Virus record (IMG/VR): IMGVR_UViG_3300012920_000087
Coordinates: 1-42,366 of that record
From: a virus
Strand: one strand, 5' to 3'
Length of the DNA: 42,366 nt
The translations under genes and the position numbers were made by a program. Of this stretch, positions 3,443 to 42,149 are shown piece after piece (position 1 is the first letter of the stretch; each line of letters opens with the position of its first letter). The notes beneath the pieces are model-generated. The model saw only the letters and a list, made by a program, of their open reading frames with translations. It searched no databases and was not told the origin of the DNA.

Positions 3443-3627
3443 TCTTGTTCCTCCAATTCTCTTATTTCTTCGTTGATTTTTCGTATCATAATACATAGTC
3501 CCTCGCTCACAGTAGCATAAAGAAAATTCTCTTTTTTATCAAATAGGGTTTCGTGTTTCCAATTCTCTACTATTCGTTGCGCTTGTCGTAGTATTAATCT
3601 AATATCTTGCTTGTTTTCTGTATTCAT
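3439..3627 (-). CDS. Small helical protein, 62 aa
   Basis: Starts MNTENKQDIRLILRQAQRIVENW and ends MIRKINEEIRELEEQE. It is predicted almost entirely helical with a coiled-coil-like C-terminus. Its ATG overlaps the stop of the ArdC-like gene, so the two are probably co-translated. No recognised family. Confidence 0.65.
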   Translation of the reverse strand: MNTENKQDIRLILRQAQRIVENWKHETLFDKKENFLYATVSEGLCIMIRKINEEIRELEEQE

Positions 3628-4592: not shown

Positions 4593-4609
4593 AATTTTCA
4601 TCTCCTTAT

Positions 4610-8710: not shown

Positions 8711-9133
8711 ATGGGCGCATTTGAACAGGCTTGGCAATTTCTCAAGGCTGACGCTTCTCAAATATACAATGACGCTAGAACTCGTAGACAAACAATGCAT
8801 CCAGCGATTACTAGCATAGTAGACCGTGAAAATAAAAGGTTGTTAGCAGAATTAGAAAAAAAACCCCTCTCCCTTACCAATTTGTTCAGTCCTTCTCCTC
8901 AAGCAGAGGTTAGTTTAGTAGACCAGCCTCGAAATAGACATTTTCCAGCCGAAGTAACAATGGGAATAAGAAATTTCCCAACAGAGGGTGGACCTGATAA
9001 CGAAACTAAAAACTTTAGACCTGTAGACAGACCTAAAGATAAATTTGGTCGACCTATATTCAACGACCCAGAAACTGGAATGCCAATGGTAATGCGAGAT
9101 GGTATACCAGTTGAGTTTACAGGAGATTATTAG
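8711..9133 (+). CDS. AFEQAW-LKAD tagged protein, 140 aa
   Basis: I set the start at the ATG at 8711, giving MGAFEQAWQFLKADAS. This matches the first residues of paralogues, and it lies about 27 bases after the TATA-like CTTTTTGT at 8680-8687; an in-frame ATG at 8699 would be too close. After the tag come ARTRRQTMHPAITSIVDREN and a low-complexity, proline- and asparagine-rich body that looks disordered. The HPAI-x4-(D/N)R segment also occurs in 9747-10262. Likely a virion or packaged protein by inference from the tag; no enzyme motif seen. Confidence 0.75.
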   Translation: MGAFEQAWQFLKADASQIYNDARTRRQTMHPAITSIVDRENKRLLAELEKKPLSLTNLFSPSPQAEVSLVDQPRNRHFPAEVTMGIRNFPTEGGPDNETKNFRPVDRPKDKFGRPIFNDPETGMPMVMRDGIPVEFTGDY

Positions 9134-9172: not shown

Positions 9173-9712
9173 ATGAGACCTTTCGAGCAGGCTTGGCGTT
9201 TGCTCAAGGCTCCTGTCTATACCGATGACAATCTGCCACCGATGGAACAGAGTCGCCACTACAAGATGCTACCTTATCTCGACCAGATGGGCGGATTCAT
9301 GTGGCAGTCAGAAGACGGGATGGCTCGTGGAACTATGAGACCTGATTATTTTCTAAACAGTTTGTTGATAAATAATTTTGAGATGGCTGGCCCTGTTAGG
9401 GGACAAAACAAGTCTCGTCAGTATATTCAAGACATGATTGACCAAGGACACGCACATTTTGACCACGAATTAGATGGCACACATGTGACCAATGTTGAGA
9501 GGCATTCGGCTGGTTATTGGAACAAATTAGTTGACGAGGGCGTGCTCGACGGTGCTCATGAACGCCCTAACATACGCACCAACTTAGATGGAGACCAGCA
9601 TTTTGTTTATGCTTACGACAAAGAAAGCAAGCAACCTTGGAGCCATGAACTAAGTGAAGACTACGCTGATTATCACGGCCTACCTACCGATGCGGTCTAC
9701 GATAATATCTAG
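9173..9712 (+). CDS. AFEQAW-tagged protein, 179 aa
   Basis: Begins MRPFEQAWRLLKAPVYTDDN. The body is rich in Asp, His and aromatic residues (DMIDQGHAHFDHELDGTHVTNVERHSAG at about 86-113). It could be a small folded domain, possibly metal-binding given the histidines. Separated from its neighbours by about 35 bases on each side, with its own TATA-like box, so it is probably transcribed as a unit. Function unknown; packaging inferred from the tag. Confidence 0.75.
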   Translation: MRPFEQAWRLLKAPVYTDDNLPPMEQSRHYKMLPYLDQMGGFMWQSEDGMARGTMRPDYFLNSLLINNFEMAGPVRGQNKSRQYIQDMIDQGHAHFDHELDGTHVTNVERHSAGYWNKLVDEGVLDGAHERPNIRTNLDGDQHFVYAYDKESKQPWSHELSEDYADYHGLPTDAVYDNI

Positions 9713-9746: not shown

Positions 9747-10262
9747 ATGGTCGGGGCTTTTGAGCAAGCATGGAGTCTTTTGAAAGCGTTACCTCAGCAA
9801 CAGATGTATGAACAAATGTCAAGACCTATGCCTTATGGGTATAACCCTGACATACAACAACAAAGACTTGGTACTGTTCACCCTGCGATTATAAACATGA
9901 TAAATAGAGTGCAGAACCCACATGAGTATAAATTCATAGATGACGAACATGACCGCAGGCTAATAAGAAATGATTTGTTTTCTAATGTTCCAATGAGACC
10001 TAACTTAAGAGTTTTAGGAAGAGCAGAAGAAGGTCAATTTGCCGATGACCCTGCTATGATTGAAGGTAGAACACCCTTATCTATAGAGAATTATGGCAAA
10101 TACTTCGATGAGGATAGAGCCGCTGGTGGACAAGGTCCGTCTTTTATGATGGGCGATAGTGGGGATTTACACACAGAGCACTTCAACATACCATTAGCAA
10201 CTGGCGGCACCATTACTAACAATGCTCCTCTTAGACCAAGAGATATTTCTTACGAGGTGTGA
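9747..10262 (+). CDS. AFEQAW-tagged protein, 171 aa
   Basis: The frame is open from 9654, but the ATG at 9747 gives MVGAFEQAWSLLKALPQQQ, the family tag, and lies at leaderless distance from a TATA-like box. After the tag there is a Gln/Pro-rich linker, then VHPAIINMINRVQN, matching HPAITSIVDR in the gene at 8711. The rest is rich in Asp and Arg and looks partly disordered. The two genes are probably paralogues. Function unknown. Confidence 0.75.
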   Translation: MVGAFEQAWSLLKALPQQQMYEQMSRPMPYGYNPDIQQQRLGTVHPAIINMINRVQNPHEYKFIDDEHDRRLIRNDLFSNVPMRPNLRVLGRAEEGQFADDPAMIEGRTPLSIENYGKYFDEDRAAGGQGPSFMMGDSGDLHTEHFNIPLATGGTITNNAPLRPRDISYEV

Positions 10263-10268
10263 ACAACA

Positions 10269-11027
10269 GTGACAGCATTTGACCACGCTTGGACACTACT
10301 TAAGCAGCGTGGATTTGAAGTAGACCCACGCTATGAAGACCAAAGGTTAGAGAACTTACAGACAACAAGAGACGATATTGATACACTCAGAGACCATAGA
10401 GCAAAAGTATTGGCAGAAATAAATCGCTTAAGTCAATTAAGAACACCGGAAAGCGATGCCAAAATTCAACAATTGATAGAAGGAGGGCACACTAGTCCAT
10501 TAGCGTATGAAATGTTCCCCGCCCAGTCTATTCCAACAGGGGGCTATGTCGGTGGTGGTTTAAGAGATGTATCCGATGAAATGCATTTTTTAACCGACTT
10601 TGATGCTGATATACAGGGTCCACCTTTTTTTAACACGGCGTTCCTAGAGCCATTTACAGGTGCTATGTTCCAAGAACAACAAAGGCAAGAAGCAATGGAA
10701 AGGGAGGCTATGGGTCGCCCAAGTACCGTGTATGATATAGAACATGGCTTTGACCGCTCTGATTTTTCAGATGAATATTTCCCGTTTGAGCCTACTGAAA
10801 AACCACCTGCTGACATAGGGCGGGCTGGTAGCATTTCTAACATAATTAACCCCCGTAATGACAAGGACCCAACAATTCCTAGACCCGACTTTAGTTTTAA
10901 TCCATTCGACCCTAATGAAGTCGCTTTAAGACGACAGACTATGGCCAACGAGCAAACGCCGCTAGGACAAGCGCTGGCAAGAGTTAGGGCTGGTAGTGGA
11001 CCTCGACCACTACAGTTCGACCAATAA
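10269..11027 (+). CDS. AFDHAW-tagged protein, 252 aa
   Basis: GTG start, MTAFDHAWTLLKQRGFEVD. Residues about 22-75 form a charged, likely coiled helix (RLENLQTTRDDIDTLRDHRA and onward). The remainder is low-complexity, rich in Pro, Phe and Asp, and probably disordered. It follows the upstream stop by only six bases without a clear TATA box, so it may be co-transcribed with 9747-10262. Packaging is inferred from the tag. Confidence 0.75.
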   Translation: MTAFDHAWTLLKQRGFEVDPRYEDQRLENLQTTRDDIDTLRDHRAKVLAEINRLSQLRTPESDAKIQQLIEGGHTSPLAYEMFPAQSIPTGGYVGGGLRDVSDEMHFLTDFDADIQGPPFFNTAFLEPFTGAMFQEQQRQEAMEREAMGRPSTVYDIEHGFDRSDFSDEYFPFEPTEKPPADIGRAGSISNIINPRNDKDPTIPRPDFSFNPFDPNEVALRRQTMANEQTPLGQALARVRAGSGPRPLQFDQ

Positions 11028-11058: not shown

Positions 11059-11286
11059 ATGAGACCTTTCGAGCAGGCTTGGAAAATTTTAAAAAATTTA
11101 GACTATAGGGGAAACCCTCTACTTTGTCCTAAATGCCAAGGCACTGGTATTGACAACGAAACTAAATACGGTGAAACACCTTGTCGGTTATGTAACGGTA
11201 GCGGTATGCGAATGAGCGTTAATCCTATGGCTATGCAGCAGTATCAAAGTCAATTACCAGAAGAACCTTACGAATACGAATCGTAA
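11059..11286 (+). CDS. Tagged DnaJ-type zinc-finger protein, 75 aa
   Basis: Starts MRPFEQAWKILKNLDYRGN, followed by CPKCQGTGIDNETKYG and then CRLCNGSGMRM. Two CxxCxGxG repeats are the hallmark of the DnaJ central zinc-finger domain, which binds unfolded protein. Only about half a DnaJ zinc domain (one zinc) is present, and there is no J domain. The combination of packaging-type tag and DnaJ-like finger is unusual. The short C-terminal tail is acidic. Confidence 0.8.
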   Translation: MRPFEQAWKILKNLDYRGNPLLCPKCQGTGIDNETKYGETPCRLCNGSGMRMSVNPMAMQQYQSQLPEEPYEYES

Positions 11287-11300
11287 CAGGAGCGATAAAC

Positions 11301-11849
11301 ATGGGCGCATTCGACAAGGCATGGGCTTTACTCAAAGGTCAATATATGCACCCTAGTGTAATGGGTCACTTTGCTCGTGGCTCAATGGTTCGAGAAGCAG
11401 ACGGCCCACAGGCTACTGAATATGCTTTTGATGACTTTGGTGACCCTGCCAAAACACCGAAAATGTTTTCAGGGACAGAAGCAGACCTTAAATATAGGCA
11501 ACAAGAAAAGATTGCTAATAGCCTTGGATTTGAAACTGCTCAAGAAATGAGAGAGGCAAGTTTTAGACCTAGAGTGAGAGAAAGGGCCTCGGCTATACCT
11601 CAAGAACAAGTTGAGGATTTCATTCAAAACAGATTGGTAAATCCTCCAGTAATACCGGCTGAGTTCCATCCAAATGCATATCCCGGTGAAAGGGCTTTGT
11701 ATTTCTCTATGCTTGACGGGCCTGACGAAATCAATCTCAGGAGATTAGTTGCTGCAAGACAAAGAGGACATTATGATGGTGGGCCTGAGTTTGGTTTGAG
11801 CGAACCTACAGGTAGACGAGATTTGTTCCAACCTAACCGACAACTTTAA
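11301..11849 (+). CDS. AFDKAW-tagged protein, 182 aa
   Basis: MGAFDKAWALLKGQYMHPSV opens the protein. The body is soluble, with a helical charged segment near residues 58-100 (DLKYRQQEKIANSLGFETAQ). A good ribosome site AGGAGCGATAAAC precedes the ATG, and it follows the DnaJ-finger gene by 14 bases, so the two are probably an operon. No recognised domain. Confidence 0.75.
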   Translation: MGAFDKAWALLKGQYMHPSVMGHFARGSMVREADGPQATEYAFDDFGDPAKTPKMFSGTEADLKYRQQEKIANSLGFETAQEMREASFRPRVRERASAIPQEQVEDFIQNRLVNPPVIPAEFHPNAYPGERALYFSMLDGPDEINLRRLVAARQRGHYDGGPEFGLSEPTGRRDLFQPNRQL

Positions 11850-11874: not shown

Positions 11875-12051
11875 ATGAGTGGCGTTGAATTACTTGGATA
11901 CTTTTTGGTAGCCCTTTTGGTGGGCTATGTTTGGGCTTGGTACATGATTATTAATGAAGAAACTACTGACTTCAAAGTCTTTAGTAGTGAAGAAGAGATA
12001 GAGGAATTCCACAAGTCCTGCTTTCACGGTATGAGGAAGGGGATTGAATGA
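11875..12051 (+). CDS. Single-span membrane protein, 58 aa
   Basis: Starts MSGVELLGYFLVALLVGYVW; residues about 5-26 form one transmembrane helix, followed by an acidic cytosolic tail (EEEIEEFHKSCFHGM). Probably leaderless from the TATA-like box at 11846-11855. Its stop overlaps the ATG of the lyase-like gene, so the two are coupled. It may tether or partner that enzyme; this is inferred only from the overlap. Confidence 0.65.
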   Translation: MSGVELLGYFLVALLVGYVWAWYMIINEETTDFKVFSSEEEIEEFHKSCFHGMRKGIE

Positions 12052-12892: not shown

Positions 12893-14116
12893 ATGATGAG
12901 AGCCTTTGAGCAGGCATGGAGTGTTTTGAAAGCAGACCCTTTGGCACAAGGTGGAATGGGCACTTTACCACCTGCTGTTAGAAGCATGATAGAAAGACAA
13001 AGGGCAGGTAATGTTGGAGACTTCTCTCAAATTGCAGCGGCAAATCGTGCCCGTCAATTAGAAAATATTAGAACAATGACAAACCCTAATTTAACTATGT
13101 TTCCAAATGCAGAGGTAGCAAGGGCAAACGCTTTAGAAATGATGGGTCAGACAGCGAGAAACATAAAGATGGGCAGAGGTGAAGATACACAAGAATTGCC
13201 TCCTTTTATTGATTTTTCTGGTGCAACAAGACAGGGTTACCCCACAGTCATGCAAGATATTAGTCCAATAACTGGTGGAACTACTATGGCGACAATGGGT
13301 GGCAGGGGACAAGAAGCGACTGTTCCGGTAACTATGAGAAACAAGATTACTGGAGAAACTACTATTGTTAACACTATGCCGGGACAATCTATGGCAAATT
13401 TACCAGACCACATGGAAATTGTAAGCACCGGTCAACCTCAAATGCCTCCAGTTGCATCTATACCAATTACAGAAACTATGCCGGAAGAAGCCTTCATGGC
13501 TCAACCAGAAAGTAGAATGGCTCGTAGAGGGGTAGGTGCTGCAAGGCGTAGAATGGAAAGCGGTGCTAGAGGCCCAACAGGTCAGGGTATGACTCCTTAT
13601 CGAACTAAAGAAGGCATGCTTGCATCAAATGTCGGTGTAGCAAGTCCAACTAGGTTGAGAAGAGATACCAGACCTGTAGAAACTCAACAAGAAAGAACAG
13701 GCAAGCCTACCGTTGCTCAAAATACAGCAGATATACTCGCACAGTTTGCTCAACAGCAGAGCACCGAGTTTGACAGGCCAGCAGAAGTAGACTTGAAGCC
13801 TGAACCAAAGTCCGGCGGAATCAACGAACAAATAGATACAGCAGGTCGTGGAGGAAGAAGAGCACTCAGAACACGACAATCAATTGCGGGTCAAGATGAC
13901 AGACCTAATTTCCCGATTCGAGGTTTTGAAAGAGGTAGCCAGCCACCTGTTCCTATGAGAGGTCTCCCCCCTGTTGACCCACAGCGTTTGCAGCAAAGTA
14001 TCGACATGGGTAGAGCAGACCCGGATTTGATGAATGAAGAGAGGTTACTTGAACTTGCGAGACAACTTGGTAAACAAAACGGCGCTCAACAAACTGCTGT
14101 TGACCGAACTGCTTGA
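12893..14116 (+). CDS. AFEQAW-LKAD tagged large disordered protein, 407 aa
   Basis: Starts MMRAFEQAWSVLKADPLAQG, the closest match to the tag on 8711-9133 and the same K-A-D step as the major capsid protein. The following PPAVRSMIERQRA recalls the HPAI-x4-(D/N)R segment of its paralogues. Most of the rest (Met-, Gln-, Arg- and Pro-rich) looks disordered and basic, with many RxxR patches. This composition would suit a DNA-interacting internal virion protein, but that is inference. Confidence 0.75.
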   Translation: MMRAFEQAWSVLKADPLAQGGMGTLPPAVRSMIERQRAGNVGDFSQIAAANRARQLENIRTMTNPNLTMFPNAEVARANALEMMGQTARNIKMGRGEDTQELPPFIDFSGATRQGYPTVMQDISPITGGTTMATMGGRGQEATVPVTMRNKITGETTIVNTMPGQSMANLPDHMEIVSTGQPQMPPVASIPITETMPEEAFMAQPESRMARRGVGAARRRMESGARGPTGQGMTPYRTKEGMLASNVGVASPTRLRRDTRPVETQQERTGKPTVAQNTADILAQFAQQQSTEFDRPAEVDLKPEPKSGGINEQIDTAGRGGRRALRTRQSIAGQDDRPNFPIRGFERGSQPPVPMRGLPPVDPQRLQQSIDMGRADPDLMNEERLLELARQLGKQNGAQQTAVDRTA

Positions 14117-14613: not shown

Positions 14614-14955
14614 ATGGGCGGAGACTTTGAGTTTCAGTTTTGTGACTGTTGTAGTCCTGCTGAACTCGCTTTTGAAGTACTAAAAGCAAGGTCAAAGCCG
14701 TTTCACGGTTACAATCCTAACAAACATAGTCGCAAAGGTGGTTTAAACGCCAAAGGTCGTGCTGCGGCTAAGCGTAAAACAGGTGCAAACCTTAAGCCAC
14801 CTGTTACTACCAAGCCTTCTAAACTCAAACCCGGCGGTAAAAAAGCGAAGCGTCGTAAGTCTTTCTGTGCTCGCATGAGTGGGGTCAAAGGTCCAACTAG
14901 TAAAAAAGGTAAACTGACACCAAAAGGTGCAGCGTTGAAAAGGTGGAATTGCTAA
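14614..14955 (+). CDS. DUF6321-like basic protein with internal tag, 113 aa
   Basis: The central and C-terminal part (RKGGLNAKGRAAAKRKTGAN, later RRKSFCARMSGVKGP, ending KRWNC) matches the DUF6321 family, which I recognise from many phage and mobile-element proteins of unknown function. It is strongly basic and likely binds nucleic acid. In front of it is a Cys-containing leader and then PAELAFEVLKARSKPF, a variant of the AFEQAW-LKA tag at about residues 16-31. Start at the first ATG. The gene ends with a TAATG overlap to the next. Confidence 0.8.
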   Translation: MGGDFEFQFCDCCSPAELAFEVLKARSKPFHGYNPNKHSRKGGLNAKGRAAAKRKTGANLKPPVTTKPSKLKPGGKKAKRRKSFCARMSGVKGPTSKKGKLTPKGAALKRWNC

Positions 14956-15362
14956 TGACAGCGTGGTGGGAAATTTTAAAACAAGATACTGAGCAAGTTA
15001 TTTTGCGTGAAATAGAAAAGGAAGGCGGCGCTCTAGGTATGAAGAATCTTAGAGAAGTGGTGCCTGACGAAGATGAATTAAAGTCTACACTTACTAACAT
15101 GATTAAACAAGGTAAGTTATTTGTTCACGAAGACGGTGATATCTATACTCACGAGCCTAAAGACCAAATGGAAAAAGGTTGCGACTGTGGACACTGTGTC
15201 GGTATAGACAATGCATTTGACTTTTTAGAAAAGAAATTGTGTCCTGCTGGTAAAGCAGCAGCCAAGCGCAAATTCAAAGTTTACCCCTCTGCTTATGCGA
15301 ACGGCTGGGCGGTGCAATATTGTCGTGGTAAGTTTCGTAAGAAAAAGGGGAAGAAGAAATGA
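14955..15362 (+). CDS. Winged-helix-like protein with DUF5872-type C-terminus, 135 aa
   Basis: The start at 14955 gives MTAWWEILKQDTEQ, a shortened version of the tag (AW then ILKQ). Residues about 12-60 (EIEKEGGALGMKNLREVVPD, then TLTNMIKQGKLFVHEDGDIY) read as a winged helix. The C-terminus LCPAGKAAAKRKFKVYPSAY followed by ANGWAVQYCRGKFRKKKGKK is the basic phage module commonly labelled DUF5872. Probably nucleic-acid-binding. TAATG overlap with the previous gene and ATGA overlap with the next. Confidence 0.75.
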   Translation: MTAWWEILKQDTEQVILREIEKEGGALGMKNLREVVPDEDELKSTLTNMIKQGKLFVHEDGDIYTHEPKDQMEKGCDCGHCVGIDNAFDFLEKKLCPAGKAAAKRKFKVYPSAYANGWAVQYCRGKFRKKKGKKK

Positions 15363-15760
15363 TACCTCTTAGTCAGGCTTGGCTAGTCGTCAAACAAAGG
15401 CAGACCTGTCCAATGGCGACTAGAGATTTAAAACTCAATACTAAAAATAGGAATATCGCAATAAAATCAAACCACATTAATTATGGCCCGCTTAATTTAT
15501 CTGATGAAAAGTATTGGGAAGACGCAGCAGACCATTGGAAGACTACGCCAGAAGTTGCTAAAAAATCTAATTGTAGTAACTGCATTGCTTTTGATATTAG
15601 TCCGAGAATGAAAAAATGCATGCCGTTAGAAGGAGATTTAGGTTATTGCTGGATGCATGATTTCAAGTGTCACAAAGATAGAACTTGTTATACTTGGGCA
15701 GCGGGTGGACCGATAACCGAAGATAAAATTTCTATGCAAAATCAAGAAAAACGAGGTTGA
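15359..15760 (+). CDS. Cys-rich phage-type protein with tag, 133 aa
   Basis: Starts MIPLSQAWLVVKQRQTC, a diverged tag. The rest contains YWEDAADHWKTTPEVAKKSN, then CSNCIAFD, a later cysteine, GYCWMHDFKC and RTCYTWAAGGP. This arrangement (CxxCxAFD, GYC, FxC, RTCxxWxxGGP) occurs in a widespread phage protein of unknown role; the spaced cysteines could hold an iron-sulfur cluster or zinc. ATGA overlap with the previous gene. Confidence 0.75.
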   Translation: MIPLSQAWLVVKQRQTCPMATRDLKLNTKNRNIAIKSNHINYGPLNLSDEKYWEDAADHWKTTPEVAKKSNCSNCIAFDISPRMKKCMPLEGDLGYCWMHDFKCHKDRTCYTWAAGGPITEDKISMQNQEKRG

Positions 15761-17598
15761 TATATTTGCCAGAATGCACTTGTCACGATGTTCTTATTGT
15801 CAAGAACCTTAACAGGTGGTTCAAAGAAAAGTGGGTTGATGTATCTCGCAAAGACCCGAAAACTGGTAAGCATCCACCATGCGGTAGGTCAAAAGCCAAG
15901 AAGGGTCGCAAAGGCTACCCGAAATGCCGACCAAGTGTAAGAGTATCGAGTAAGACTCCAAAGACTAGCGGCGAGATGACTAGTGGACAGAAGCGAGCAG
16001 CGACTAAGCGCAAGCGAGCCAAGAGACAAGGGGTGGGTGGTAAGCCAACTATTGTTAAAGGTCGGGACATGTCTCATTGTAATTGTAATGCGCCCAAGGG
16101 CTTCTCTTGTAAAGCGCATTGTAAAAGCAAACAGATGAAAAAAAGCGTGTTGGTAAAAGCCCCACGCATTCCTCGTAAGAAAGGTCAACCCGCAGGTTCA
16201 AAGAAACATTCCGATTTGTATACTGATGAGAATCCGAAAGGTACTATTCATGGACTTGGTTTCAAAGACCCGGCTAAAGCAAGACAGTCAGTTAGTAAAA
16301 TCAAAAACAGCAGTCGCAGTCATGCTCACAAAACACAGGCAGCCATCGCCATGGAACAAAGAGCAAGAGAGATGGGTAAAACCAAAGAAGCCGGTGTCTA
16401 TAGAAATTTTATCGAACAACAGAAAAAGAAAACTAAGCAGATGAAAAAATCATTGATATTAGTAAAGCAAGATGGGTTTCCCGAAAACATGCCCGATGCT
16501 GCACCGGAGTTAATTAGCGTAGGTAGTATGCTAGGCGTAGACGCTCCAGAAACTTGCACGATACCCGGTTGTAACAATCCTCCTATGATGAAAGCAAGGT
16601 ATGCCAACCCGCTAAGAAGTGTAGATTATACTCATCATATGTGCACTGAACACGCTATGCAGTATGAGCCAGACCTCGCTCAAGTGCTTGTGCAAAAAAT
16701 GAACTCGATAATAAAAGCAGTTAGGCGAGGTGACTACGCTCGTCACTTACCTACCGAAATGGATTATGACTTGTTACAAACTCATCTAAGAAATAATCCC
16801 AACGCTACAATTAGAGATTTATTAGTTCCTTATTTGACAGGTAAGTTTGTTAAACCGGATTCTCAAGTTATGGCTCGCCCACCTTCTTATCAGGGTGGAG
16901 AGTTACCGTTCCCTTTATCTCAGCAAAAAGCCAAAGATTTTGTTTCAAGAATTCCAGAGACTATGATGATGTCCGGTGGTAGGCGAACCCCTCAGTTAGA
17001 AAATGATTTCAATGTTTTGAATAATTCTGTAAGAGTATTACAAGGTAGAATTAGGCAACAACCCGACATGTTTGAAATGCAACCTCCAAAAACTCAACGA
17101 GCATTTACTACAACAAATAGGTATGGTTCTGGGTTCGGAGATGTAAGAGGTAATCCAGATTTACCTACGGGCAAGTTTGGCAGAATGAAGCAAAGAATGA
17201 CAGATTATCTGAATACTCCAGTTGGACTTATGGAAGATTCACCTATGTTAGAAGAACAGGAAGAAGAAATGATACAAGCAGGTGAGCCAATAGACCTTTC
17301 TTGGCGACTTCTCAAGAACCCAGTAAGTCCAGAGGCTAAGCGTCACAAGTTAGAGTATGACAAAAAGTATGAATCGACACCTGAGCGGGTAAAATATCGT
17401 GAAGAGTTAAATCGTGAGCGACGAAGAAGAGGCATTTACGGCAAGGGTGGCCCTGACATGAGCCATACTAAGCAACACACGCTAGTTGCAGAGGACCCGC
17501 ACACCAATCGAGCCCGTCATTTCAAGGAAAGAGGTACACTTAAAAGCACAAAGCCTATTGACCGGGAGTTGATTCTCGTTACCACAGGTAGATTGTAA
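15757..17598 (+). CDS. Composite (polyprotein-like) virion protein, 613 aa
   Basis: TTG start overlapping the upstream stop. It strings together modules that I know as separate small phage proteins. First, WFKEKWVDVSRKDPKTGKH to about residue 70 is a DUF5872-like basic domain. Second, KKHSDLYTDENPKGTIHGLG to about 225 is the family ending in SHAHKTQAAIAMEQRA. Third is a Cys/His segment near 266-300 (CTIPGCNN ... HMCTEH). Fourth, PERVKYREELNRERRRRGIY, near the C-terminus, with DMSHT. Between the modules lie MKKSVLVKAP (about 127-136), MKKSLILVKQ (about 228-237) and DLSWRLLKNP (about 514-523), each resembling the packaging tag. Proteolytic maturation into several proteins is inferred. Confidence 0.8.
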   Translation: MIYLPECTCHDVLIVKNLNRWFKEKWVDVSRKDPKTGKHPPCGRSKAKKGRKGYPKCRPSVRVSSKTPKTSGEMTSGQKRAATKRKRAKRQGVGGKPTIVKGRDMSHCNCNAPKGFSCKAHCKSKQMKKSVLVKAPRIPRKKGQPAGSKKHSDLYTDENPKGTIHGLGFKDPAKARQSVSKIKNSSRSHAHKTQAAIAMEQRAREMGKTKEAGVYRNFIEQQKKKTKQMKKSLILVKQDGFPENMPDAAPELISVGSMLGVDAPETCTIPGCNNPPMMKARYANPLRSVDYTHHMCTEHAMQYEPDLAQVLVQKMNSIIKAVRRGDYARHLPTEMDYDLLQTHLRNNPNATIRDLLVPYLTGKFVKPDSQVMARPPSYQGGELPFPLSQQKAKDFVSRIPETMMMSGGRRTPQLENDFNVLNNSVRVLQGRIRQQPDMFEMQPPKTQRAFTTTNRYGSGFGDVRGNPDLPTGKFGRMKQRMTDYLNTPVGLMEDSPMLEEQEEEMIQAGEPIDLSWRLLKNPVSPEAKRHKLEYDKKYESTPERVKYREELNRERRRRGIYGKGGPDMSHTKQHTLVAEDPHTNRARHFKERGTLKSTKPIDRELILVTTGRL

Positions 17599-19984: not shown

Positions 19985-20704
19985 ATGTCGGCATTAGGTG
20001 GTTCTGCTCTCGTTGGTGGGGTAGTATTTGCTAAAGAGTTGTGGCATTATTGGAAACCAAGGAAGGTTGGCGTATACGGACCCACTATGGTGGGTAAGAC
20101 TACCTTAGACAGATATATGACTACGCCGGGGGAAATGGAAGAAATACCTTTGGCAGATAGAACAAAACATTTCAAAGTTCCCGGCATCAATCGGTTTTTG
20201 TTACCTAGACCAAGTAGAAAGCGAGTTACCTACAAAGGTGATACAAGAGTAGTTTACTCTTCTGATGTTGGTGGCGAAGAGCGTTTTTGGAATCTTTGGG
20301 TTGATGATTTAGTCAATAGACAGGTAGAAGCAGTAATATTCTTAATCGACCATCGAAGTAGCAAAGGTGGCGATGAAGCAGTGCAGGCTGTTGGCGGCTT
20401 CAAATACTTAGTCGATGCCATACTACACAGACAATATCGTTATCGTAAACTCAAGGCTTGGTTCAAAGGTAAAAAATACGCACCAAAGTTAATTATGTTA
20501 GTGGCTAACAAGGCAGACCAGTGGTGGGATGACCAAGCGAATGTGCTCTGGCAACAACAAAGGCTGGGGGAACATAAGATATTTGACCCATTTAGAGAGG
20601 ATTTGGTTAGACTTCAAAAGGCCGGAGTGCCAACAAAGCGTGGTATGATGGCAACAAAGATAGGATGGAATGTAGAAAATACAATGTTAGATTTACTTAG
20701 TTAG
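19985..20704 (+). CDS. Small Ras/Arf-like GTPase with hydrophobic N-terminus, 239 aa
   Basis: The GTPase motifs are easy to read. G1 is GPTMVGKT at 32-39. G3 is DVGGEERFW at 94-102; DxGG followed by an acidic residue is like Arf, SR-beta and Gtr-type proteins. G4 is NKAD at 175-178, and ATKIGWNVENTMLDLL at 223-238 resembles a G5 plus final helix. Residues 1-18 are hydrophobic and may hold it at a membrane, as for SR-beta. It would switch between GTP and GDP states; the partner is unknown. Such a GTPase is unexpected in a head-gene neighbourhood. Confidence 0.85.
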   Translation: MSALGGSALVGGVVFAKELWHYWKPRKVGVYGPTMVGKTTLDRYMTTPGEMEEIPLADRTKHFKVPGINRFLLPRPSRKRVTYKGDTRVVYSSDVGGEERFWNLWVDDLVNRQVEAVIFLIDHRSSKGGDEAVQAVGGFKYLVDAILHRQYRYRKLKAWFKGKKYAPKLIMLVANKADQWWDDQANVLWQQQRLGEHKIFDPFREDLVRLQKAGVPTKRGMMATKIGWNVENTMLDLLS

Positions 20705-23661: not shown

Positions 23662-23671
23662 GTTGAGAGTT

Positions 23672-25030
23672 ATGCCAATGATTACAGGTTCGGACACTAG
23701 GATGTATAGTCCTCGTAGCGAATCTAACATGGGCTATTCCAAAGATGATGACGATTACAAATACGGGGCTGGCGACCCTGAACACATGGAAGAGTTGAAA
23801 GATAAAAAAATGGCTGAAAAAGATAAGCCAAGCGAAGTCTCTCAGTTACCTCATTTGCAGTTATCTATACCTAAGCCCGAACTACCTCAACTTCCCGGTT
23901 TGATGGAAGAAGAAGACCCTCTTATGATGGATGACCAATTCAATGAAGGTCAACAATTTGGCGCTATGACGGGAATGCCTGACATGGGTAATCTGAGTAT
24001 TGGTAACGCTACGGGTACTATGCCAGCACCCGGTGGTATGCTTGCTACTGGAGAGCCGATGGAAAATGCTTGGTCTACTTTGATAAAAGAGGATGAGGAA
24101 GACGATGAAAAACCAGACCCTAAGAAATTTACTAAGCCGAAAAAAATCCCTAGGCCTTTTTTTGACCCAGAAATAGATGTCCCTCGCCTCAGAAGATTAG
24201 CAGATGAAAATGTAGTAGAAACAAGAGAAACTGACAAGTTTCCACCTACTGCTTATGGTAATCCTGATTATTTTACTACAGGTGAGCCAATGGATAATGC
24301 TTGGTCTAGTCTGATTAAGAGTAGACTTGACAAGATAAAAGGTAAAGAGCAAAAGCCTTTCACAAGAGAACAGTTTGAAATTCAACCCGGCGGTGCAGAT
24401 ATCACTACTGCCAACACTCGTAGAGCCAAAAGAGCATCTCGTCAGATGTCACCAATGAAAAACAGAGGGCTTGATTTAAGCCCTCACAGTGTAGATTATT
24501 CTCATTTGGGTATCGAAACAAAGCAACCGCTTCGCTTGTTTCCTAGAGATTACGACCAACAGTTAGGCACTCAACAAAAACGGCAGTTGTTGGCAAATGT
24601 GCCACAAGTGCAGGCCGGTCACGCTCTTGGTCCAGAAAGCAGATATAATCCAAAACCTCACAAGTTATCTTCCCCTAAAGGTAGACCTATCAAAGAACCG
24701 GGTGAACCTAAACTCCGAGGTCAAAAGTTATCTAAATCAGCCAACTTGCTTAGAAAAGATATAGAAGACTTGAAGAAAAAAGTAGATTATATGAAATTCA
24801 ATCAAATAAGAAGGCTGCTTAGTCAATTGAAAAATTCTGTGGAAAGGCAAGAGCGTAGACTCAAAGCCGCTAAACAAGGCGGTCATGGTAATAACAGAGA
24901 GGCTGGTCATATGGAAGCACAGAACAAAACAACTAAACCAACTGGTGGCACTGACACTATTGATTTACCTGACAGTTGGGGCGCACCTTCCACTATGTTT
25001 GCAGCAAGAGGTAGTGGGAGAGTAGGCTGA
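23672..25030 (+). CDS. Protein with two internal AW-LIK tags, 452 aa
   Basis: I prefer the ATG at 23672 to a TTG at 23663. The protein is low-complexity and basic/acidic by turns. It carries two nearly identical peptides, TGEPMENAWSTLIKEDEED (about 128-146) and TGEPMDNAWSSLIKSRLDK (about 203-221), which match the AFEQAW-LLKA tag. The C-terminal part has a long charged helix (about 345-395). A multi-part virion protein cut at the two tags is one reading. No enzymatic domain seen. Confidence 0.65.
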   Translation: MPMITGSDTRMYSPRSESNMGYSKDDDDYKYGAGDPEHMEELKDKKMAEKDKPSEVSQLPHLQLSIPKPELPQLPGLMEEEDPLMMDDQFNEGQQFGAMTGMPDMGNLSIGNATGTMPAPGGMLATGEPMENAWSTLIKEDEEDDEKPDPKKFTKPKKIPRPFFDPEIDVPRLRRLADENVVETRETDKFPPTAYGNPDYFTTGEPMDNAWSSLIKSRLDKIKGKEQKPFTREQFEIQPGGADITTANTRRAKRASRQMSPMKNRGLDLSPHSVDYSHLGIETKQPLRLFPRDYDQQLGTQQKRQLLANVPQVQAGHALGPESRYNPKPHKLSSPKGRPIKEPGEPKLRGQKLSKSANLLRKDIEDLKKKVDYMKFNQIRRLLSQLKNSVERQERRLKAAKQGGHGNNREAGHMEAQNKTTKPTGGTDTIDLPDSWGAPSTMFAARGSGRVG

Positions 25031-32875: not shown

Positions 32876-33244
32876 ATGAGCGAAGAGAGGGAAAATGTCG
32901 CCGAAAAGTTGATGGGTGCACTCATCACTAAAATGGAAAACATGGATGCAGGTCTTCAATTGTTGAAAGCAGAAAACGCTGAACTCAAAAAAGCCCTGCT
33001 CAATCCAGCAGTGTTGCTTAGAAAGGCTGGTTTTGTATCTGCTAAGAATAATATGCCAGAAGATGTGATGCCTGATTTGTTTAGGGGCGATGCTGATGAT
33101 GTATTGTTGAAGGAAGACGGTAATCCAATAGAAATACCAAAGACCAATCAAGACTTTTACAAGACAGATTGGAGTGAAATTCACGCACTGGCTGACCAAG
33201 CAAAGAACAGCGGTGCAATAGGAAACGAAATAGGAATGGAATAA
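32876..33244 (+). CDS. Coiled-coil head-region protein with DWSEIHALA tail, 122 aa
   Basis: MSEERENVAEKLMGALITKM then a coiled coil (about 14-45), NPAVLLRKAGFVSAKNN, and a C-terminus TDWSEIHALADQAKN. The last motif recurs almost exactly at the end of the protease-scaffold protein (MDWSEVHSLAGS). That suggests both ends bind the same partner, perhaps the capsid protein. GGTGATTAA precedes the ATG. Confidence 0.65.
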   Translation: MSEERENVAEKLMGALITKMENMDAGLQLLKAENAELKKALLNPAVLLRKAGFVSAKNNMPEDVMPDLFRGDADDVLLKEDGNPIEIPKTNQDFYKTDWSEIHALADQAKNSGAIGNEIGME

Positions 33245-36600: not shown

Positions 36601-39555
36601 GAAGCGTGGGAGAGACAAAATATCAAAGGAACTCGTTATTATGGCGGTAAAGGTCATCATAATACTCTACAAAGAAAGTTGGATGCTGATATCAAAGCGA
36701 TTGCAGATGCAGGTGAGCATCTATACAGGATGCTTGGGCAAACTCCAGAAGGTAGGGCTCAACTTGCTCAGATATTCAACCCTAATGCTGACCACGAAAC
36801 AGTGGCTGCTAATATGCGTATGTGGGCAGCAATGTCAAATGATTTCTTACAAAAAGCACCCGAAGACAGCCACGACATCACGACACTAGGTAATACGAAG
36901 TTTGAAGTTAAAGGTCAGTCAAAGCCAACTACAGATTTTGCTACAGGTATGAAAACTGCGATTTCTAATTTTGGTAGCACTTTTGACAATAATGATGTCT
37001 TTAATTATGTTAGTGGTCTGGATGCTATTTCACAAATACAGAACAGCGCTATCATGCAGGCTGACCCTGAACAAGCACAAGCCTTACTCGAACAAAATGA
37101 AGCGGCTAATCGCCAGTATGAAGATTCCTTCATGGATTCGCTTGGTTTGAATAAGTCTGATAATAGATTGCGACAAACGGTAAAAGATTATGTCGACAAT
37201 ACTCTACTACCCAGACTCAACGAAAACAAACCTATGCCTTCTGTTATGACAGGTCGACAATTGTTTAGTCAAATGTATCCTGATATAGACATCGACGCTA
37301 TGCTTGCAGACATGCTCAATCGTAAACAAGTAAACAGACCTGATGTAAAAGACTTCGTTAGAAAGGTAGGACAAATATACAATACATTGGGTAGAAATGC
37401 AGAAGAAAGAAACCGACAAACTGGTATCGGTTTCCAACTTGCACATAATTTAGACGATAGGTTTGAAGAAGATTTGCATACGAGTCGTTCTAAATTTTCA
37501 AGAGATTTGAAAGGTAAGGGTAAAGCAGACGCAAAAAATTTAGACGACCAGCAAAATGCTATACAGACACTCAATTCTTTAATTACTAATTTTTCAGATG
37601 TAGAGGTTCCACAAGAAATCACTCAAACTAAATCTGGTCTTGGTCGAGTTAAGGTCGGGCCAAACGGTCACGACACACATACCGTCAAGAGTCTGTATAA
37701 CTCAGGCGGTTTCAAACATGAGTTTGGAGATGACCTTTCACCTAATTTCAATTATTACATAGGCTCTGATGGAACTCCTAAAATTACTATGGTTGGACCT
37801 AACGAAGATAATATTCACGCTTTAGTTCCACTGACTAGTCACTTTTGGGACAAGATGATTTCAGTAGCGGCACCTGCTTGGCAGAGTTTACTTTACGGCC
37901 CTGAGCATAAAGAAGCAAGAGAATCACTGGCTAGAAATGAACGAAGAGCCCCTCAGTTTACAGCCGATAATCTTGGCCGAACACTCAATCAAGATTCTAG
38001 TTCCACGACTAAGTCTGACATCGGTCTGGCAGACTTAACTAATCCTGACATTATCAGAAAAGACTTGGGCCCGGAAGTCCCTACGCTACAGCCGATGCAC
38101 CGTATCTTTGAACTCAAAGACCTTGAACATCTGCGTGGGTTTACAGGTGACTGGATAGTTTCTGTCATGCCAGAGGGTGAAAGAGGGTTTGTTAAGAAAG
38201 ACGATGATGAAATTACATCTCCTACTTTCGATTTGTCAGACGAAGACAAAGAAAATTTCAAGAAAGTAGCAGACGAAGATTACCACGCTGATGTCATAAA
38301 AACAAAAGATGGTTACTATATTTTTGATGTCTTGGAGTACGATGACAAAGAAACCCATGAAATACCTATTGACGACAGAATAAAGATACTTAGGGGTGCT
38401 ATGGAAGGGATAGACAATATACATTTACCAAGCGCTAGTGATACTCGGCTTACTGATGATGCTGGGCTTAAGTTAGCGGTAGATGATTTACAGAAAGACC
38501 ATGGCTCAGTATTACTAAGAGACGCTAAGTCGACATATATGGCTGGAGAATTAAGACATCCTAAGTGGGTCATGCTCAAACCCGGTAAGGATGTAGTACT
38601 AAGAGTATTAGACAGAAGAGGCAACGGGCCTTACACATATCGTTTAGGCACTGGTCCGATTACTCAAGCAGAAAAAATAGGCAACCGAGCAGTAGAGTCA
38701 GAAGGTGAAACTTACATGGATGTAGGAGTTGCTTTCAATAGTCCAGAAAAGTACAACAAGGGTGACCATGTTAGAGTCAATGCGGCCAATGTAACTAAAG
38801 TAGAATCGGTAGATGAGGAAACGGTTTACACTTTGACTGGCTCAGAAATAATCGGTGAAGCAGAAGGCGAAGGTCTTGTTAGTAGGGAAACTCTAAGTTT
38901 ACTTGCCAAGTCATTAGATTCACAGTGGATGTGCGAAGTTCATAGGGCTAAGAGTGGTATTCGAGTAGTGATGCCGCAAGGAGATGTGGTTTACAAGGCC
39001 ACAGAATCTCAAGGACATTGGTCAGTCCATAGTCCCTTGTCATCTAATAATTACCTGATTAGACTATCTGAAAGTCAAAGAGTATATTGGAGTCCTATAG
39101 CGGGGGCACTACTCAAGGCTAATCTTGATATTGCAGAATCAGATAACGAAGATAAAGCAGAAGTACACGAATCAAAGGGTGATGGTAAGCCGTTAATCCC
39201 ACCTAAAAAAATCAAAGACTCTGACTGGAAAATACCAGACAAACGGATGGTAATGGTCAAAGGTTTACAATTGATAGAGAAACTTTTGAAAAGTGGGGTA
39301 GGCGCTGTAGGCCAATCGAGTACAGGCACTATGGGTCTAGGTATAGGTTATGCTACACCTATAGAATCGCCTATGGGTCCGACAAACTTACACGACGAAA
39401 AAACAATGCCGGACTATGATAACAAAAAACGACCCGGAGAAGATTCTTCTATAGAACCGGAAACGGAAGACCAAGAAGACAAAAAACACTTGGTCATACC
39501 TGTATCAGATGGCGTTTTAGAAGTGGATTCAGATAAGGCCGTCTTCCATACTTGA
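33658..39555 (+). CDS. Giant protein (1965 aa) with degenerate ATP-dependent DNA ligase fold
   Basis: TTG start after GGTGATG. Beginning REGPLQTLDRTRGVFVKSLID, then over 1400 residues of unrecognised, partly coiled sequence with His/Asp-rich stretches. From about 1480 the sequence follows a DNA ligase. DWIVSVMPEGERGF fits motif I but has Met1504 where the AMP-accepting Lys should be. FDVLEYDDKETHEIPIDDR (1556-1574) and GSVLLRDAKSTYMAGELRHP then KWVMLKP (1616-1642) match later motifs. An OB-like part contains VGVAFNSPEKYNKGDHVRV. Further LLKA (1818-1821) and LLKS (1876-1879) sites lie behind it. Probably a structural or ejected protein with an inactive ligase-like domain. Confidence 0.7.
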   Translation: MREGPLQTLDRTRGVFVKSLIDGIGKADAGAEFYFAAVSAERKGYELSGHDKGLLNMFSSVIQKQEDEDEWAPHTHQSINERQMGFEIDYTAGMELADNPSMNPDRVVPPNADDLRYSGRPFTLINGEANDPYRTRNALGQGFNPLHGNYHQILADFYLANEAGSEPQSQKDARKELAWEEHAAKNDHSFLQTPLHLGKLNEDATNHQLYLNHYKRWEESNRDIVDKVRADRKEQGLSEAEIAHELKQSHMEDAKRDWQQNLGFMDYFLGMEWFSPEEREKAYRHLYDHGGADSTRPLTFDSSPQIENLLPRLKRNFQQRFSGLYDWWTRVPEHSQHPLAIKPKRLPEDTENIQRVHNWMAMQGSSLGKKRDWERAVDHYNKMYRMYNPDANAFSYSQVPYFDDKRNEIHWRKQSIGNGKKQNYLSEPMLRHMLNIDSEGKLHEDGEHPVWGPAWKKADSPFSQEELDEIMKKRRDESIKMRAAGRVARNHGAINYGTHMHPDHYDYLDDHDTLATHWKRPFQVGGMGKKANELFNLLHHHTLAYRPVETEQSADSQALRERFGDYLQDIGADGEQVGEFEPTTERTMMGDKEVSLFFEKTGNRIGIQHIEGGKSMDAFLAPFGQGGLSLFPDAEGKTTAFRGDFARPSSLMNPQSAVASSRIKGAGGQNAHTERHSSGTDGKYSNEVHSDYHAARESGDGDAATDAFDKLRGETPDHLRMVNIHQGTFNNDEVEQSAAYSYHTIGTMVGMGNNPMEPLRRVISYKDPGLLQEGTGLRSTLADHSDLVNDLSARFETLGEFDIKEEKQQIEASIENSRSRIERELENLNQRKAPPNLTDEELIEFNRVLSTEKNLLMGELQELPKAKERMIADLDDKLRQHTIGNQLTDNEGNVVLGPDGKPIDIGVMTNLGIPRELNPEGQVSRRLSASQRPMAAEQESQYFEGLMDRAGEIEELLESGSLTQGERLTLQGELNQLDNQMEAWERQNIKGTRYYGGKGHHNTLQRKLDADIKAIADAGEHLYRMLGQTPEGRAQLAQIFNPNADHETVAANMRMWAAMSNDFLQKAPEDSHDITTLGNTKFEVKGQSKPTTDFATGMKTAISNFGSTFDNNDVFNYVSGLDAISQIQNSAIMQADPEQAQALLEQNEAANRQYEDSFMDSLGLNKSDNRLRQTVKDYVDNTLLPRLNENKPMPSVMTGRQLFSQMYPDIDIDAMLADMLNRKQVNRPDVKDFVRKVGQIYNTLGRNAEERNRQTGIGFQLAHNLDDRFEEDLHTSRSKFSRDLKGKGKADAKNLDDQQNAIQTLNSLITNFSDVEVPQEITQTKSGLGRVKVGPNGHDTHTVKSLYNSGGFKHEFGDDLSPNFNYYIGSDGTPKITMVGPNEDNIHALVPLTSHFWDKMISVAAPAWQSLLYGPEHKEARESLARNERRAPQFTADNLGRTLNQDSSSTTKSDIGLADLTNPDIIRKDLGPEVPTLQPMHRIFELKDLEHLRGFTGDWIVSVMPEGERGFVKKDDDEITSPTFDLSDEDKENFKKVADEDYHADVIKTKDGYYIFDVLEYDDKETHEIPIDDRIKILRGAMEGIDNIHLPSASDTRLTDDAGLKLAVDDLQKDHGSVLLRDAKSTYMAGELRHPKWVMLKPGKDVVLRVLDRRGNGPYTYRLGTGPITQAEKIGNRAVESEGETYMDVGVAFNSPEKYNKGDHVRVNAANVTKVESVDEETVYTLTGSEIIGEAEGEGLVSRETLSLLAKSLDSQWMCEVHRAKSGIRVVMPQGDVVYKATESQGHWSVHSPLSSNNYLIRLSESQRVYWSPIAGALLKANLDIAESDNEDKAEVHESKGDGKPLIPPKKIKDSDWKIPDKRMVMVKGLQLIEKLLKSGVGAVGQSSTGTMGLGIGYATPIESPMGPTNLHDEKTMPDYDNKKRPGEDSSIEPETEDQEDKKHLVIPVSDGVLEVDSDKAVFHT

Positions 39556-39571
39556 TTAAATAGTATGAGCA

Positions 39572-40978
39572 TTGTCTATAGAACCAATGGCAGCGATGGC
39601 TTCACTGAGAACTTCCCCCGTCAATCACGGTGGAACTATTAGTATAGTTAAGGCTGACAACGACCTTGTAATCGCTGGATATGCATCTGTTGAGATGGTA
39701 GACAAGCAAGGAGATTTGATTACCAGAAGTGCTTTGAAAGATGCTTTTGGTGATTTTATGAAAGCAGATGGATTTAGAAATGTTCAACTGGCTCACTCAA
39801 ATATACAAGTTGGAAGTGTCATTCCATCTTATACTGACTCTGATGGTAGAGTTTGGAAATCCGGTGTTGACGATGCTGGTATGTTCGTGGTCATTAAACT
39901 ACGAGATGACATAGAAAAGGCAAGAGAAGTTGCTAAAGAGATTCGCAAAGGAGCCCTTAGAGGTTTTAGTATTGGAGGACAAGCATTTAAGAGAATGCGA
40001 AAGAGTGACCAGCAGCACGGTGACTACACAGAAATCTCCAAACTGGAACTACATGAGGTCACTATTTGTGAAAAAGGTATTAACCCGGAGGCGACATTCC
40101 GTATATTGAAGGAGGACACAAACATGAACGATGATAATGTATTAAATGAACTGTCGAGCACATTGGACAGACTGAATGGAAGATTAGACGCTATGGAAAA
40201 AGAAGATAAAGACATTCCAGAGGGTCTGAAAGAACATATGAAAGACAAGAAAAAAGACAAGGGTGAAGAGATGTCAGATAAAGATGAAAAAGAAGCAATG
40301 TATGGCTCTGAGCATAAAGGCATGCATGGTGATATGGAAAAAGGATATTCTGATGTCATTACTAGCGACTACCTAAACTGGATGGAAAACACTCTAAAAT
40401 CAGCAGGTGTTGACATTGCAGGTGCAAGAGACCACTTTGACCAAGTTTCCAAGGCTAACCTAGGAAGCACACCAGAAGCAATTGGTGACGGTGCAGACTA
40501 CTTCGCTGGACAAGTTAAGGGTCGAGCACAAGAAGGTGGCTCCCCATCAACTAACGCAATCGGCAAACTCAACAGTGGCGGAAGCGGCGAAGTAGCAAAA
40601 GGTTACCTACACCCAGACTTAGTTACCGCATCTGATTTAGAAGCAGCATACGAAGTTTACAAAGCAGCATCCCTAGAGGAACAATTCAAATCTAATCTAG
40701 GAAATGTTTTTGCTGACAGACTAAACAAAGAACTTACCGAAGAGGCAAATGCAAGAGAAGCGGCTTCTTTTGATGCAAGGACACCACTTGCTAACATCGA
40801 AAAGGCTCTATCAGACTTGAGTGAAAGAATTGACAACATCAGTAAGTCGTCTGATTCAGTAGAAGCAGCAACAATTAGAAAGCAACTTTCCACTGTCGAA
40901 GTCCCTTCGACACAGGACTTAGCGAGCATGGACTGGTCAGAAGTCCACAGCCTTGCTGGGAGCGTATTTCATAACTGA
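39572..40978 (+). CDS. HK97-type prohead protease fused to scaffold
   Basis: The N-terminal 180 residues are a prohead protease of the HK97 family. The catalytic His75 lies in LAHSNIQVGS and the nucleophile Ser133 in RGFSIGGQ, with LELHEVTICEKGINPEA after it. The rest (about 185-468) is acidic, coiled and Gly/Ser-rich, as for a fused scaffolding domain, ending MDWSEVHSLAGS. IVKAD at 25-29 and ILKED at 178-182 bracket the protease domain and look like self-cleavage points. The frame opens at a TTG; an ATG at 39587 is an alternative start. It sits directly before the capsid gene, the usual order. Confidence 0.9.
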   Translation: MSIEPMAAMASLRTSPVNHGGTISIVKADNDLVIAGYASVEMVDKQGDLITRSALKDAFGDFMKADGFRNVQLAHSNIQVGSVIPSYTDSDGRVWKSGVDDAGMFVVIKLRDDIEKAREVAKEIRKGALRGFSIGGQAFKRMRKSDQQHGDYTEISKLELHEVTICEKGINPEATFRILKEDTNMNDDNVLNELSSTLDRLNGRLDAMEKEDKDIPEGLKEHMKDKKKDKGEEMSDKDEKEAMYGSEHKGMHGDMEKGYSDVITSDYLNWMENTLKSAGVDIAGARDHFDQVSKANLGSTPEAIGDGADYFAGQVKGRAQEGGSPSTNAIGKLNSGGSGEVAKGYLHPDLVTASDLEAAYEVYKAASLEEQFKSNLGNVFADRLNKELTEEANAREAASFDARTPLANIEKALSDLSERIDNISKSSDSVEAATIRKQLSTVEVPSTQDLASMDWSEVHSLAGSVFHN

Positions 40979-41015
40979 ATAGGTGGATAAAATAAGATTA
41001 AGGAGATGACAAGAT

Positions 41016-42149
41016 ATGGCAAGAAATTACATGAGAACAATCAATGACATGGAGCGTTACTACTACGGTGCTGGACAAAGTATGGGATACTCATACACTG
41101 GTTCAGAACTATTGAAGGCTGATGCACCATTGCTAAGCACAACAGCAGGAACATACCAAGCAATCTACGGTAGAAAAGTTTGGTCACAACTAAACCAAGA
41201 ATTCAACGCATTTTCAATTCTACCAAAGAAACCATGGGACAGAAGTGGATGGAGAGTAGTTACTGCTAAACCTTCCAAGACTGTTGGTGGCGGAATTGCA
41301 GAGAACGGTACACTACCAGACACAACCAAACCTACTTTCCAGAATGTTGCAGCAAAGCCTAAAACTATCGCTCACTCATTCGATATGTCTGAGGTAGCAA
41401 TTTTCCTAAACGACAAAGACGACGGTCTAGGTGACATTCGTTCAGTCTTGAAAGAAGAGATGGGTAAGCACCACGCAGAGCACATCAACGACATGCTAAC
41501 TGAGGATGTAACAACTGTAGCAGGTAACGACTTTGAATCACTTGACAGAATTACCACTGGTAACAACTCAATGGCATCTGGTACTCACTACGATGCAGGT
41601 GACGAAGACATTTACTCGATTGACAGAAGTGCAGCCGGTAACTCTTGGGCATTTGCTGAGGATTCTGCTGACAGCGGTTCTACTAACAGAACTCTATCAC
41701 TTGACCACTTAGATGAGATGTTTAGACTTATCTGGACTCGTGGTGGAAATCCAAAGGTCATGTTAACTGGATATGACACCTTGATGAGAATACAACAACT
41801 TCTACAAAGCCAACAAAGGTTCATGGAAGAAAAGAGAGTAGTTCCAACATTCAACGGTGTAAAAGGTGTTCCGGGTATGGAAGCAGGTTTCATCGTAGCA
41901 ACTTACAACGGTGTTCCAATTATCCCAACCAAGGAGATGGCAAGCGACGGCATCAGCAGAATTTACATGCTTGATACTGATTACCTATACTTTAGCACTG
42001 CAAAGCCAACACAATACTTTGAGTCTGGTATCGAAACCGGAGACCCATTCGCCATTAACCGCCTCGGTCAAGAGGGACTTTACCGAACAATGGGTGAAGT
42101 ATGGACAACTTTCTTTGGAGGTCAAGGTTCTATCCGTGACTTGAAGTGA
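41016..42149 (+). CDS. HK97-fold major capsid protein, 377 aa
   Basis: The main shell protein. Position after the protease, length, a strong AAGGAGATGACA ribosome site and an internal pattern (FSILPKKPWDRSGWRVVTA, later EEMGKHHAEHINDM, then LTGYDTLMRIQQLLQ and YNGVPIIPTKEM) all fit an HK97-type capsid protein. An N-terminal arm of about 34 residues ends at SELLKADAPLLST. K-A-D at 34-36 is the same step as in the protease and in the tagged proteins, so the arm is probably removed by the protease. Codon use here seems more biased than in neighbouring genes, as expected for high expression. Confidence 0.9.
   Translation: MARNYMRTINDMERYYYGAGQSMGYSYTGSELLKADAPLLSTTAGTYQAIYGRKVWSQLNQEFNAFSILPKKPWDRSGWRVVTAKPSKTVGGGIAENGTLPDTTKPTFQNVAAKPKTIAHSFDMSEVAIFLNDKDDGLGDIRSVLKEEMGKHHAEHINDMLTEDVTTVAGNDFESLDRITTGNNSMASGTHYDAGDEDIYSIDRSAAGNSWAFAEDSADSGSTNRTLSLDHLDEMFRLIWTRGGNPKVMLTGYDTLMRIQQLLQSQQRFMEEKRVVPTFNGVKGVPGMEAGFIVATYNGVPIIPTKEMASDGISRIYMLDTDYLYFSTAKPTQYFESGIETGDPFAINRLGQEGLYRTMGEVWTTFFGGQGSIRDLK

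Follow-up and report, generated by a model that had tools for sequence, protein, structure and literature searches.

A putative lysine-specific head maturation protease and a candidate capsid-targeting helix in a marine virus related to Druskaviridae

Our analysis favours, with moderate confidence, an account in which a marine-clade virus combines a lysine-specific maturation protease with a helix that targets proteins to the capsid and whose end often matches the consensus of that protease. The S78 prohead protease would mature the head by cutting after lysine in [LIVM]-x-K↓[ASGEQ]-[DE] (the arrow marks the cut): the capsid arm would be trimmed between K34 and A35, removing its helix and linker, the protease would be freed from the scaffold between K180 and E181, and the C-terminal helix pair of the scaffold, probably its shell-gripping part, would be released between K437 and Q438. 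In Poseidoniales viruses, a 12-residue amphipathic helix (P/A-F/M-D/E-x-A-W-x-L-L-K) would be carried by about ten late proteins per genome; its most likely role would be to direct these proteins into the prohead, as the capsid-targeting sequence of T4 or P1 does, and its N-terminal copies may then be cut off at a K↓A/E/Q/S step like that of the head sites.

The window and its relatives

The window, that is, the whole stretch of DNA analysed here (IMGVR_UViG_3300012920_000087, 42,366 nucleotides), is a linear virus contig of 42 kb that carries terminase, portal, S78 protease-scaffold and HK97-fold capsid genes. The nearest annotated records were the Haloarcula viruses HVTV-1 and HCTV-1 (Druskaviridae), its closest cultured relatives, with 33% identity in the capsid protein and also 33% in the protease domain. 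In a published capsid tree, Druskaviridae fall among viruses of marine archaea, magroviruses included (PMC8651126), and the capsid protein of the window belongs to a marine clade next to Druskaviridae, which matches that tree. ORFs were called mechanically, and the contigs compared are related to one another and partly incomplete.

Archaeal and bacterial genomes were scanned twice: the capsid protein of the window as query gave no match, and a profile query then gave four capsid genes. A 106 kb contig (CACGHY010000002.1) in the record 'uncultured Candidatus Poseidoniales archaeon isolate AG-422-I20', 72 kb of which were masked in the sequence used, has a capsid gene 64% identical to that of the window over its length, and on the same contig a protease gene and two tagged genes. 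Host evidence of this kind, viral genes in an archaeal isolate assembly, has been called for (PMC10160649).

Other genes of the window also resembled known proteins. By eye only, the minus-strand gene at 3624-4601 has the appearance of an ArdC-type anti-restriction protein (HEAGH metalloprotease motif), and the gene at 19985-20704, in the late gene region, that of a small P-loop GTPase (GPTMVGKTT). Between portal and protease, the gene at 33658-39555 encodes a 1965-aa protein with a weak match to a DNA-ligase domain (E 2e-4); it occupies the place of the 'zeta toxin' gene of HVTV-1, and its relatives carry LLKAN, LLKAD or MLKAD near the C-terminus.

Lysine sites in the capsid and protease-scaffold proteins

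The major capsid protein (41016..42149, + strand, 377 aa) matched phrog_24667 (major head protein, E 4e-56), and its AlphaFold2 model matched HK97-fold capsids and encapsulins (Foldseek: Mic1, T5 and HK97, with encapsulins among the top fold matches). An N-terminal helix at residues 9-17 of the model, TINDMERYY (41037..41063, +), forms a block conserved in the outgroups. Downstream of it lies LLKAD (residues 32-36; 41109..41123, +), inside a stretch predicted to be disordered (18-45) that joins the helix to the folded core. We compared conservation across 40 capsid homologues (8 effective lineages, weighted at 70% identity), as the original prediction had suggested: K34 and D36 were invariant, residue 32 was always hydrophobic, residue 33 was free and residue 35 was A, rarely S, Q or I. 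From this conservation and the position in a predicted-disordered linker we infer cleavage, and a cut between K34 and A35 is quite likely. The mature protein would then start at A35 and have a mass of 37.85 kDa, as compared with 41.85 kDa for the full-length protein, and its predicted first tryptic peptide is ADAPLLSTTAGTYQAIYGR.

The prohead protease gene (39572..40978, +) adjoins the capsid gene and encodes 468 aa in which an S78 protease, identified by a match above the cut-off to PF04586 (E 4e-10) and by phrog_23555, is fused to a scaffold. AlphaFold2 was run on a 462-aa construct, whose residue numbers plus 6 give those of the full ORF; the whole model gave no significant Foldseek match, for which disorder of the scaffold is the probable reason. 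At the protease-scaffold junction, ILKED (residues 178-182; 40103..40117, +) lies inside a linker predicted to be disordered (167-185 of the construct). Over weighted lineages its lysine was present in 19/20 and the acidic residue (D/E) in 19/19, with the weighted profile I/L/V - L/A/I/S - K - E/S/Q/A/D/G - D/E, and we consider a cut between K180 and E181 as likely as that in the capsid arm. A third conserved site, IRKQ (40874..40885, +), lies in a predicted-disordered stretch (423-433 of the construct) ahead of the C-terminal helix pair of the scaffold. It has the form I/L/V-x-K-S/A/Q/G, with K in 17/20 weighted lineages (R in 2) and a hydrophobic P3 in 18/20, and makes a cut between K437 and Q438 probable, if a degree less so than the other two. 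Beyond the protease domain, among about 295 scaffold residues, the columns at least 85% identical were A168, K174, D176, K431 and P439 (construct numbering), three of which are the junction lysine, the junction aspartate and the third-site lysine. A random 14-mer of scaffold composition contained the pattern 2% of the time.

The C-terminal helix of the scaffold, MDWSEVHSLAGSV (40928..40966, +, from the AlphaFold2 model), is a candidate shell-binding element. The gene at 32876..33244 (+) encodes a second scaffold-like protein in which LLKED (33104-33118) is followed by a helix resembling the C-terminus of the scaffold; its lysine is invariant, and a hydrophobic pair precedes it in nearly all of 16 relatives. 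After their conserved lysine site, both proteins have the helix pattern DWSE[VI]HxLA, and they are possibly two scaffold proteins with one shell-binding element. The original prediction, whose coordinates (39572-41125) span no more than the protease and the first part of the capsid gene, listed neither IRKQ nor this LLKED.

Two further KAD strings lie within the protease itself. IVKAD (residues 25-29; 39644..39658, +), originally put forward as a site of self-cleavage, is situated in the first β-hairpin of the model (strands E17-21 and E27-36), and its lysine occurs in 12/20 weighted lineages; it is therefore probably no site, and we rejected it as a likely autocleavage site in favour of a structural role. 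FMKAD (39755..39769, +), absent from the original list, is located in the interior of the protease fold (helix 46-58 region of the model) and serves as a built-in negative control, indicating that the string alone marks no site.

Across relatives, the sites suggest a rule in which P3 is hydrophobic, P2 is free and P1 is an invariant lysine. P2 is leucine only in the clade of Poseidoniales viruses and free across the wider family, so that the consensus first proposed, hydrophobic-L/V-K-A/S/E followed by a variable, often acidic residue, survives in its lysine and its hydrophobic P3 and not in its L/V; P1' is A/S/E/Q/G, and the acidic residue is the D/E found at P2' of the capsid and junction sites. 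The capsid and junction sequences were MSKAD and VSKAD in HVTV-1, LQKSD and LAKSD in L214, LGKAD and VAKSD in L283, and LTKAD and LAKSD in L296, while in L281 the capsid site was LMKAD and the assignment of the junction is doubtful. Outgroups conformed in both proteins despite highly divergent sequences. Capsid genes fetched later from named genomes had hxK at both places in 4/4 (LLKAD/ILKMD, IAKAD/VAKAD, VNKAD/VAKSN and LQK-D/VAKSD for capsid/junction), the capsid step being KAD in three and KD in one.

The HVTV-1 capsid protein has two KAD steps, at residues 68-72 and 100-104. The first (70-72) aligns with the region around the start codon in the marine capsid proteins, which are shorter; it looks as though the marine viruses start where HVTV-1 is cut. 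The main cut of HVTV-1 could accordingly be at this first step, sparing the equivalent of K34, which tells against the proposed rule for the capsid arm.

A tag peptide on unrelated proteins

The original prediction had extended a single L-K-A-D step from the capsid protein and protease to two further proteins. All five of its strings occurred where it placed them (FLKAD at 8738-8752, VLKAD at 12923-12937 and the other three as given above), and a shared step holds for the capsid arm and the protease-scaffold junction. What the tagged proteins share is FExAWxLLK instead, AD following the lysine in only 2/11 tagged proteins of the window. We rejected LKAD as a unit common to all the proteins because the tags vary after the lysine and the head sites vary before it.

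FLKAD and VLKAD are the ends of a longer tag, P/A-F-E-x-A-W-x-L-L-K, which over the window and 20 related contigs takes the form P/A-F/M/L/I-D/E-x-A-W-x-L/V/I-L-K; an example of a tag peptide is AFEQAWSVLKADP. It occurs 2-15 times per contig in about 75 unrelated protein families. Among the contigs compared, the tag was confined to Poseidoniales (magrovirus-type) viruses. It was absent from HVTV-1 and a related haloviral contig (G022), which suggests that, compared with the capsid site, the tag is younger or narrower in distribution; the remaining outgroup contigs without a tag are short. A search of the single-cell genome AG-422-I20 with a DNA pattern of the tag gave no match, though two tags are visible in translation, because the pattern left out Val codons and the contig is mostly masked. 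The tag is not mentioned in the passages that we read from the magrovirus literature after its original descriptions. Pfam and PHROGs searches gave hardly any hint of what the tagged proteins do, the matches being DnaJ-type zinc repeats, an HD phosphohydrolase and DUF5872.

All 11 tagged genes of the window are on the + strand (below, the hyphen follows the tag lysine). Tags near the N-terminus were AFEQAWQFLK-AD (8717-8752, gene 8711..9133), PFEQAWRLLK-AP (9179-9214, gene 9173..9712), AFEQAWSLLK-AL (9756-9791, gene 9747..10262), AFDHAWTLLK-QR (10275-10310, gene 10269..11027), PFEQAWKILK-NL (11065-11100, gene 11059..11286), AFDKAWALLK-GQ (11307-11342, gene 11301..11849) and AFEQAWSVLK-AD (12902-12937, gene 12893..14116), together with the variants LLMTAWWEILK-QD (14949-14987, gene 14943..15362) and PLSQAWLVVK-QR (15365-15400, gene 15359..15760). 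The product of 11059..11286 has DnaJ-like CxxCxGxG repeats, and PF00684 was found in tagged relatives. Amid these genes, the untagged gene at 12048-12875 looks by eye like a metabolic enzyme of the HMG-CoA-lyase type. Internal tags were found in the gene at 15757-17598, where GEPIDLSWRLLK, followed by NP (17287..17322), stands just before a C-terminal phrog_6437 domain, and in the gene at 23663-25030, with PMENAWSTLIK and PMDNAWSSLIK at 24056..24325. Relatives of the latter gene, which lies a few kb upstream of the terminase, have one to three tags of the variant AWSxL(L/M/I)K at a spacing of about 70-140 residues; the arrangement is reminiscent of docking helices in series or of a polyprotein.

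Counted in the window together with its 20 related contigs, tags were N-terminal in 113 cases, internal in 58 and C-terminal in 6. The C-terminal tags (6-7) stop 2-4 residues after the lysine, so that cutting could not remove the tag, and targeting and cutting may be separate; on these grounds we argue that the first job of the tag would be binding and not cutting. What we observed are the sequence pattern, its clade distribution and a strand bias; packaging, the binding partner and delivery we infer. By a narrow balance, we hold that the tag targets proteins to the head; that it is also cleaved falls a little short of probable. We offer more tentatively still the fuller picture of a position-independent, encapsulin-like cargo peptide that would load about ten different proteins per virion into the HK97-fold head, with N-terminal copies clipped by the lysine-specific protease of shell trimming and a set of effectors reaching the archaeal cell together with the DNA.

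Alternatives and comparison with known systems

The tags may instead be helices that dock onto another partner, perhaps a host protein or a factor of replication or assembly, and be unrelated to protease and packaging. The internal and C-terminal copies are in keeping with this, as are the capsid sites of the tagless HVTV-1 and G022 and the P2 leucine, which is nearly always present in tags, as a helix would require, and free at head sites. We nevertheless consider it unlikely, given that arginine never replaces the tag lysine beyond chance (AWxhhK occurred 74 times where 0.75 would be expected, AWxhhR once where 1.2 would be), that tagged genes are nearly all on the capsid strand (137/141 against 916/1723 of the others, p 2e-30), and that the residues after the tag lysine follow the preferences of the head sites. 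The lysine is invariant and the 'AD' after it merely enriched: out of 77 family-weighted positions, A/E/Q/S follows in 53.7, where 20.8 would be expected, and D comes next in 12.6 against 5.0. A preference for helix could account in part for the enrichment of A/E/Q.

It is improbable that the head sites are structural and uncut, with the folded N-arm simply beginning at the capsid K-A-D and the last element of the protease ending at the junction lysine. The vir519 capsid protein, in which N replaces the site lysine and A and D are kept, would suit such a role, as would the TTxxG that directly follows the capsid site and is also conserved. Against it, the hxK-[small/E]-acid pattern recurs at three unrelated places (capsid, junction and scaffold C-terminus), all predicted to be disordered between folded parts; the residues flanking each lysine are less conserved than the lysine itself, except for capsid D36. 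Moreover, capsid and junction sites co-occur in 13/14 lysine-bearing lineages, the exception being the doubtful placement in L281, and in vir519, which lacks the capsid lysine, we found no junction site.

Recent gene duplication or a conserved translation-start DNA element, to which the adjacency of several tagged genes might point, was rejected as a very remote source of the tags, in that 149 tagged proteins of at least 110 aa fell into 73 BLAST families without detectable similarity to one another, internal and C-terminal copies exist, and codons vary freely at the fixed residues (with three codons for Ala, six for Leu and both for Lys). Chance matching of LKAD strings, of which FMKAD in the protease core is an example, is equally remote, with 44 hhKAD strings against 5.7 expected in 13 contigs, five [LIVMF][LIVMF]KAD in the called ORFs of the window against 0.25 in shuffles, and position-specific conservation; it is contradicted for the capsid and junction sites and plausible only for FMKAD, perhaps IVKAD.

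Few phages have a prohead protease whose cleavage rule is known, and we found none for an archaeal virus in the literature surveyed. The rule h-x-K↓small/E-acid would predict cut sites from sequence and is applicable to the cultured virus HVTV-1. Should the tags be head-loading signals, they would name about ten candidate virion-delivered proteins per virus, nearly all of unknown function; the finding would apply to abundant uncultured ocean viruses and yield a short, portable packaging tag.

As in HK97 (gp4/gp5), the S78 protease gene directly precedes the gene of an HK97-fold capsid protein whose N-terminal part is removed, here by prediction. HK97 virion chains (PDB) start at gp5 residue 104, where the genome gives F-N-K↓S, with a hydrophobic P3, lysine at P1 and a small P1', which fits the site rule; beside it, phage P1 has M-L-E↓S, that is, hydrophobic-x-Glu. 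HK97 differs in losing 103 residues, compared with 34 predicted here, and in having its scaffold fused to the capsid protein and not to the protease, while the window virus has an acidic P2' and an extra site before the C-terminal helix of its scaffold. HVTV-1 and HCTV-1 share the capsid (MSKAD) and junction (VSKAD) sites and differ in a capsid N-terminus that is longer by about 70 residues and contains another KAD, and in lacking tags. Encapsulin cargo-loading peptides, which are short and often terminal, load cargo into an HK97-fold shell; the likeness we draw is in this shell and the short loading peptide and not in sequence, and encapsulins undergo no protease maturation.

In T4, a short N-terminal peptide sends unrelated internal proteins into the head and permits their proteolytic processing, and the DarB signal of phage P1 is a second precedent for head targeting (PMC9024508). 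Like these sequences, the tag is a short peptide common to otherwise unrelated proteins; it differs in sequence and in occurring also internally and C-terminally, and its targeting role is the one we propose. The protease gp245 of SPN3US/phiKZ recognizes A-x-E↓, with Ser preferred at P1', and cuts the protease, capsid, portal and ejected proteins, some of which have propeptides of 20-24 residues (PMC10052503). One short motif thus serves many head proteins there, as we propose for the window virus, with Glu at P1 in SPN3US/phiKZ and Lys here.
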